Program-made: the position numbers and the translations under genes
Source: a virus
Virus record (IMG/VR): IMGVR_UViG_3300023082_000023
Location: 1 to 39,099 of that record
Strand: one strand, 5' to 3'
DNA length: 39,099 bases
Part shown: positions 30,095 to 30,894 of the stretch, one piece after another
Position numbering within the stretch: position 1 is the first letter of the stretch
Layout: the number at the start of each line of letters is the position of its first letter
Notes under the pieces: generated by a model
What the model was told of the DNA's origin: nothing
What the model saw: only the letters and a program-made list of their open reading frames with translations
The model's database searches: none

Positions 30095-30277
30095 CGAATT
30101 GGGCGATGTCTTTTCCATCAGTCCGCCAAGGCTGCCCCCGAAATGAGGATTGAGGCACCTTGGCTGCCGGTGTTGTTTCCGTCCGCCGCACTTCCTGCTA
30201 TCGGCGTCCAGGCCCTTCCCCGAAAGGACCACCCTGGCTATGGAATCACGCACCGCGATAAACCTTCAAAGATACAC

Positions 30278-30306
30278 TTGACCATTAGGCCCAATGGGCC
30301 TAGTAT
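30278..30306 (+). promoter_or_regulatory. Sigma70-type promoter with embedded operator palindrome
   Basis: TTGACC (30278-30283), a 17-base spacer and TAGTAT (30301-30306) form a near-consensus promoter for the plus-strand genes that follow. The spacer and start of the -10 form the perfect palindrome TAGGCCCA-A-TGGGCCTA (30286-30302). A protein bound there would block RNA polymerase, so this is most likely a repressor operator. Confidence 0.8.
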
Positions 30307-30361
30307 CTAACACATGGGAAGCGCATACCGCCCGGCCCGACAGCCCCAAGGGGAAGAACAA

Positions 30362-30580
30362 ATGAGCATCGAAATGACCACCGCCGAACTGGAAAAGATT
30401 CACTCAGAAATCGCGAAGCTGATGGCCGAAACCAGCAAGCTGAACGCTGAAACCATCAAGTTCCGGTCCGAGTCCCACAAGTTGAATCGCGAAGCCCTCT
30501 GGTATCCGCTGGCGATGGCATCGGGTCTGGTCGGTGCGGTAGCCGCAGCGACACTGGCGCTCAGCAAGTACCTCTCCTGA
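30362..30580 (+). CDS. Coiled-coil plus C-terminal membrane helix protein
   Basis: A 72-residue protein, MSIEMTTAELEKIHSEIAKL, with repeated AETSKLNAETIKF heptad-like units followed by one membrane span near WYPLAMASGLVGAVAAATLA. GGGGAAG lies upstream of ATG 30362. It is the first gene behind the operator promoter and is opposite to the late operon. The layout (helix then tail anchor) is seen in phage immunity and exclusion proteins, but its role is unknown. Confidence 0.75.
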   Translation: MSIEMTTAELEKIHSEIAKLMAETSKLNAETIKFRSESHKLNREALWYPLAMASGLVGAVAAATLALSKYLS

Positions 30581-30584
30581 TTCA

Positions 30585-30604
30585 AAAGCCCCGCGAAAGC
30601 GGGG
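30585..30604. terminator. GC hairpin, terminator on the minus strand
   Basis: CCCCGC-GAAA-GCGGGG: six perfect pairs. Four U's follow on the minus strand (CTTTTGAA). On the plus strand the following bases are not U-rich, so read-through to 30622 is likely. Confidence 0.65.
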
Positions 30605-30621: not shown

Positions 30622-30894
30622 ATGAAAACCATCAAGCACTATTCGCCGCCGAGTACAGTCGCTTTGGAAGCGCTGAAGACCCGCCTCGAGCTGACTGGGA
30701 ATGGCATGGCTGATTTAGCTGGGCTCTCTGACGGGCGGCAATGGCGCAAATACACAGGCGGGGCAAAACCGCGCGAGGTTAGCGCACAAATGCTCTTCTT
30801 TATTGCAGCCAGACTCACCCTTGACCCGGATCAGCTTGAGGCGATCTACGCACAAATGCGCGAGATGGGCGCCGAGCTAGATTTCGTCGAATGA
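30622..30894 (+). CDS. Small helix-turn-helix-like phage regulator
   Basis: A 90-residue protein starting MKTIKHYSPPSTVALEALKT. LELTGNGMADLAGLSDGRQWRKYTGG resembles an XRE-type DNA-binding helix pair found in small Pseudomonas phage proteins, and AQMLFFIAARLTLDPDQLE completes the helical bundle. It lies in the same plus-strand unit as 30362 and could be the protein that recognises the operator at 30286-30302, by analogy with autoregulation. AAAAGG precedes the ATG. Its end overlaps the convergent gene by 18 bases. Confidence 0.7.
   Translation: MKTIKHYSPPSTVALEALKTRLELTGNGMADLAGLSDGRQWRKYTGGAKPREVSAQMLFFIAARLTLDPDQLEAIYAQMREMGAELDFVE

Follow-up and report, generated by a model that had tools for sequence, protein, structure and literature searches.

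Organisation of the locus

The window under analysis, the whole 39,099-nucleotide stretch of the IMG/VR viral record IMGVR_UViG_3300023082_000023, contains a short two-gene unit on the plus strand, the features of which are collected in Table 1. Re-reading of the sequence confirmed the presence at 30278-30306 of the TTGACC-N17-TAGTAT promoter reported in a prior sequence-only reading, together with the perfect 17-bp palindrome located inside its spacer, the last two bases of which (30301-30302) serve also as the first two of the -10 hexamer. Positioned between the lysis genes and a phrog_3412 gene, this palindrome consists of two 8-bp half-sites flanking one central base, a layout similar to that of the 17-bp operator of KorC from the IncP plasmids, and is present as a single copy in the window when up to three mismatches are allowed. 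In most close relatives the -10 hexamer reads TAATAT instead of TAGTAT.

Table 1. Coordinates of the promoter, operator, leader and genes of the two-gene unit (window numbering)
Feature	Position	Strand	Basis and remarks
-35 hexamer TTGACC	30278..30283	+	promoter match; TTGAC kept in relatives
Putative operator TAGGCCCAATGGGCCTA, 17 bp, 8+1+8	30286..30302		conserved; covaries with the HTH protein
-10 hexamer TAGTAT	30301..30306	+	promoter match
Leader hairpin 1	30316..30338	+	covariation, model R1; 5-nt loop, conserved A.G/A.A mismatches
Leader hairpin 2, at Shine-Dalgarno CCCCAAGGGG	30344..30353	+	predicted in most relatives
First cistron, 72 aa, phrog_6330	30362..30580	+	ORF; coiled-coil part, one C-terminal hydrophobic stretch
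Intercistronic hairpin CCCCGC-GAAA-GCGGGG	30589..30604	+	T-run degenerate in the window
Second cistron, 90-aa HTH protein, putative repressor, phrog_20491	30622..30894	+	recognition helix GRQWRKYT

Both of the genes previously placed behind this promoter proved to be conserved as ORFs in relatives, and the local control circuit proposed at the same time stands in the form of a putative operator lying within the promoter of a gene pair oriented against the late operon. Translation of the first gene most probably begins at 30362 and not at 30314, the frame that opens at 30314 being shifted relative to the gene in two relatives (L035 and L040). In many relatives the first gene is separated from the gene for the helix-turn-helix (HTH) protein by a full intrinsic terminator complete with T-run at the position of the intercistronic hairpin. 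The recognition helix of the HTH protein includes R39, Q40, R42 and K43, and convergent genes start directly 3' of its gene in the window.

In nine loci recovered elsewhere (L078, L079, L082, L085, L106, L127, L135, L148 and L153) the membrane-protein gene is absent, and the start codon following the leader opens a frame that overlaps the HTH gene and may represent a short leader ORF. On the minus strand of the window, in the interval separating the promoter from the holin gene, positions 30162-30243 match the Proteo-phage-1 RNA (RF03044) with 76.7 bits as against a cut-off of 42.

Conservation of the site

Neither the palindrome alone nor the promoter match alone is significant. A first-order Markov model of the window predicted 1.05 perfect 8+1+8 palindromes per window by chance; perfect 8-bp inverted repeats with gaps of 0-4 numbered six as against 4.3 expected, and the promoter pattern gave 2 matches as against 1.0 expected. 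With about one such palindrome arising per window by chance, its rarity is no argument, and it is conservation that marks the site as real.

Conservation in related phages was indeed found: a search of IMG/VR in which the central base was left free recovered the exact site from 46 contigs, in most of which it lies directly 3' of TTGA or TTGC and is followed by a -10-like ATAT or TATA. Not counting the window, 16 loci have, next to this exact site, a gene for a detectable relative of the window HTH protein, and in all 17 of the relatives' records, most of them 44-98 kb in length, the exact site occurs once each, with isolated 3-mismatch matches elsewhere in four. The GTDB genomes yielded the exact palindrome in 15 contigs, several of these matches being devoid of a promoter and chance-looking. 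Overall, the exact site is spread over many different phages and hosts, and is found together with the HTH protein on plasmids with phage genes. A literature text search with the palindrome or its 15-bp core returned no occurrence in a collection of 5.39 million open-access papers. One Methylobacterium contig (L062, 1178-1226) contains the exact palindrome twice, 32 bp apart, with an opposite-strand TTGAC between the copies.

Searches conducted with the HTH protein and its alignment assembled 92 loci encoding HTH relatives; 369 sampled genomes belonging to the same class added none. An automatic filter placed a 17-bp site within a TTGAC..TAT promoter in 73 of these 92 loci, and a diverged site occupied the same place in 7 more, giving 80/92 in total; the remaining 12 had no convincing site, in part as a consequence of contig ends or site divergence.

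Covariation of operator and recognition helix

Across this family, operator base 4 is predicted by residue 39 of the HTH protein, which opens the recognition helix (xQWRKY). When both half-sites were scored, the site was found to start with TAGG for every R39 protein (27/27), and with TAGC for 44 of the 46 proteins with S, Q, N or V at that position. The association persisted among proteins less than 75% identical, for which TAGG accompanied R39 in 11/11 cases as opposed to 0/15 with other residues. On the tree, for the construction of which residue 39 had been masked, the residue and the base agreed in 77/77 proteins with approximately four joint switches; three of these fell on well-supported branches and four were counted in all (sign test p 0.25), and the independent switches are too few for the sign test alone. 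Elsewhere in the helix, the HTH family alignment has W41, R42 and Y44 invariant and Q40 and K43 at least 90% conserved, and the single protein combining R39 with H40 is accompanied by TAGGCCGA in place of TAGGCCCA.

HTH proteins of other families encoded beside an exact TAGGCCCANTGGGCCTA site carry the motif R-[TQ]-[VI]-R-K-[WY] at the same helix position. Within 2.5 kb of the site this motif was recorded at 19/39 loci as against 3/24 control blocks, at least two of the former being noise-like, which leaves about 17/39. The loci at which the exact palindrome adjoins an other-family HTH gene with this motif include L002, L005, L008, L013, L015 and L018, and likewise L023, L025, L026, L029, L034 and L044.

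Relationship to AcrIF24 and the Aca proteins

The HTH family profile, when searched against solved structures, gave weak matches, the top HTH entries being AcrIF24 (E 0.02-0.15) and Aca3 (E 0.08), and phmmer with the single HTH protein against the PDB returned chance matches only. An AlphaFold model of the 90-aa protein (mean pLDDT 94.7, five helices) submitted to Foldseek retrieved AcrIF24 first (E 0.015) and Aca10 next, the top five including Aca1 and Aca2 as well; modest E-values of this order are usual for small HTH domains.

AcrIF24 binds the operator TAGCTCGATTCGAGCTA, an 8+1+8 sequence situated between a -35 TTGCAT and a -10 TATAGT, and represses its promoter (PMC9638941), with N194, R196 and K197 required for DNA binding (PMC9001735). 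Alignment places Q40, W41, R42, K43 and Y44 of the window protein opposite N194, F195, R196, K197 and Y198 of AcrIF24, and R39 opposite T193; the recognition helix of the window protein thus shows the DNA-contact pattern N/Q-x-R-K. The combination of this non-arginine residue with a TAGC site fits the rule proposed for residue 39, in the derivation of which AcrIF24 had played no part.

The two systems have in common a 17-bp 8+1+8 operator that starts with TAG, ends with CTA and lies between the -35 and -10 hexamers, an HTH gene as the second of two genes in a unit oriented against the late genes (as in acrIF23-acrIF24), and a conserved structured leader. By way of contrast, the window protein stands alone as a 90-aa polypeptide without Cascade-binding domains, its half-site is TAGGCCCA as opposed to TAGCTCGA in AcrIF24, its leader differs in sequence from that of the AcrIF24 operons, and the first gene of its unit encodes a small membrane protein without known anti-CRISPR activity. 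Identity with AcrIF24 proper, an anti-CRISPR, was rejected, the product having the HTH domain only.

According to PMC9410906, the Aca proteins (Aca1, Aca2, Aca3 and Aca10) repress acr-aca promoters via inverted repeats. The window unit resembles these in encoding a small HTH protein downstream of a further small gene within a short phage operon and in the placement of an inverted repeat in the core promoter, as well as in structural terms; the likeness concerns layout and structure, the base-by-base comparison of operators covering AcrIF24 only. It differs in having no known acr gene, and none of the named Aca families was matched above the cut-offs in the libraries searched.

Probable identity of the operator-binding protein

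Two candidates had been advanced for the protein that binds the palindrome, namely the HTH product of the unit and the repressor encoded beyond the edge of the window. The sequence evidence favours the HTH product, both because the operators change with its recognition helix across homologs and because the operator demonstrated for AcrIF24, the nearest relative of known structure, follows a like design. Binding by the prophage immunity repressor (CI) or Cro, with consequent coupling of the unit to lysogeny, would accord with the location of the site in a prophage and of the repressor gene beyond the window edge. CI and Cro operators occur in sets near immunity genes, whereas each of the relatives' records has the one exact site, which makes an immunity-repressor regulon unlikely; a lambda-type operator set, with several sites at the immunity region, was rejected on the same count. 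Given also that the site varies with the local HTH protein and goes with it onto plasmids carrying phage genes, the involvement of CI or Cro is considered highly improbable. A host-encoded regulator would be compatible with an identical site across many phages and hosts, but the operator variants track the recognition helix of a phage-encoded protein, and the same site is also adjoined by HTH genes from other families that share the helix motif, so that very little likelihood attaches to this alternative either. The notion of a chance palindrome in a chance promoter, for which the expectation of about one 8+1+8 palindrome per window could be invoked, is refuted by conservation, and with conservation and covariation extending across 80 loci its probability is negligible.

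It is thus very probable that the product of the second gene binds the palindrome as an autorepressor. The palindrome would then be the operator of this small HTH protein, with R39, Q40, R42 and K43 of the recognition helix reading each half-site and R39 specifying the second G of TAGG; from operator covariation only, we infer self-repression of the unit's promoter. The first gene product would be abundant, and the repressor would be made by read-through of the intercistronic hairpin. A likely reader is thereby named for a widespread phage operator, and the relationship between residue 39 and base 4 offers a one-residue, one-base recognition rule that can be tested.

The predicted RNA leader

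A conserved leader hairpin, which formed no part of the starting observation, follows the promoter, from which a transcript start around 30312-30314 is predicted. Hairpin 1 is predicted in nearly all relatives in which the HTH gene is preceded by another gene or by a short ORF. Across 63 leaders the covariation score was 0.156, as compared with 0.058 +/- 0.007 for shuffled alignments and no more than 0.041 when the pairing partners were slid; with 26 less redundant rows, hairpin 1 gave p 2e-4 for pairing and likewise for double changes, by shuffles that ignore relatedness, and hairpin 2 received no covariation support. The covariance model R1 matched the window at 30303-30372 with 62.5 bits; every match fell at a locus of this HTH family, the palindrome-bearing loci unrelated to it going unmatched, and no family in Rfam matches the leader. 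In the window's own lineage the stem of hairpin 1 includes one C.C mismatch, and the fold energy of the window leader was not better than that of shuffles (z 0.23), for which reasons the evidence for the leader is comparative.

Near-identical structured leaders were also recorded among AcrIF24 relatives (L165 and L166 as compared with L164) despite an unrelated first gene, which in L165 is a candidate anti-CRISPR. The leader CCAACAGCGCGGCACAC[C/A]GCCAGCACTGA is almost unchanged from AcrIF24 to a relative of 52% identity while the first genes are unrelated, and since the leader is kept where the first gene has been exchanged, it travels with the HTH gene rather than with the first gene. The AcrIF24 leader is predicted to fold as two successive hairpins, the second at the Shine-Dalgarno (z -2.2). 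Membership of the same leader sequence family was rejected for the AcrIF24 loci, R1 having given no match there, and the likeness is in architecture only.

Birkholz et al. 2024 reportedly set out the mechanism by which Aca2 exerts control via both DNA and RNA binding. An Aca2-RNA complex is mentioned in PMC11239489, and because Aca2 is known to bind RNA, dual DNA and RNA control becomes a reasonable hypothesis, by analogy, for the present unit. In common with Aca2, there is an HTH protein, a DNA operator in the promoter and a conserved 5' leader stem-loop near the ribosome-binding site; unlike Aca2, both the protein family and the stem-loop are other ones, and RNA binding by the window HTH protein is hypothetical. 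The conserved hairpin leaders, here and in the AcrIF24 operons, suggest control at the RNA level as well as at the DNA level. The 5' mRNA hairpin would constitute a further point of control, to which the same HTH protein may bind, in which event translation of the first gene would be repressed too; this part of the mechanism is put forward tentatively.

An alternative of about even probability is that the leader hairpin stabilises the mRNA, signals pausing or functions as an element in the translation of the first gene, with the HTH protein acting at the DNA only. That hairpin 1 lies at the extreme 5' end of the predicted transcript is consistent with such a role, as is the absence of the leader where the HTH gene comes first (L087, L101, L107, L119 and L131). 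Tending in the other direction are the AGCG motif and the non-canonical A.A/A.G positions conserved within the stem, together with the near-identity of the AcrIF24 leader after exchange of the first gene. That an HTH family other than Aca2, and extending to AcrIF24, might combine a DNA operator with translational control by RNA binding at the 5' leader hairpin, with promoter, leader and repressor forming a portable chassis for exchanged cargo, is rated as a possibility of somewhat less than even likelihood. The RNA leader is the part that would go beyond the known type of regulator; with covariation support for a leader new to Rfam, RNA action by HTH repressors besides Aca2, AcrIF24 included, becomes testable.

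Cargo genes associated with the cassette

Association with surface-modification genes is the other respect in which the analysis adds to the starting observation. In many relatives the gene behind the HTH gene differs between phages, mostly starts at a distance ranging from a few bases to some tens of bases, and encodes an acyltransferase-3 protein (10/10 of those tested matched PF01757), a hexapeptide transferase or a GDSL lipase. Since such genes vary behind the HTH gene elsewhere, the promoter, leader and putative repressor together are, as judged from gene order, a reusable cassette. The arrangement resembles that of lysogenic-conversion (moron) genes, for example the phage O-acetyltransferases, in that a gene for an acyltransferase, or another gene with a likely role in surface modification, is present behind the HTH gene in many relatives; the window unit differs from moron units in having no third, surface-modifying gene. 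The literature searched contained no description of moron control by this set of operator, leader and HTH protein.

If correct, this reading implies a chassis of promoter, leader and repressor that carries exchanged cargo, whether for surface acetylation, lipases or anti-CRISPRs, and would join anti-CRISPR regulators and surface-modifying gene cassettes under one regulatory design. TAG-N11-CTA behind TTGAC, in conjunction with the leader, could be used as bait for further cargo genes.

Loci with an acyltransferase-3, hexapeptide transferase or GDSL lipase gene after the HTH gene comprise L081, L087, L094, L103, L105 and L116-L118, and also L125-L128, L133, L135, L137, L146 and L154. The downstream genes of L082, L085, L109, L147 and L150 resemble those for small secreted or outer-membrane proteins, those of L109 and L150 having no Pfam match. 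Among annotated records, O-acetylases adjoin the HTH gene in Serratia phage BZS1, an E. coli plasmid with the HTH gene encodes a DapH/DapD/GlmU-related protein and a lipopolysaccharide glycosyltransferase, and in phage IME307 an ExoZ-like gene is located behind acrIF24.
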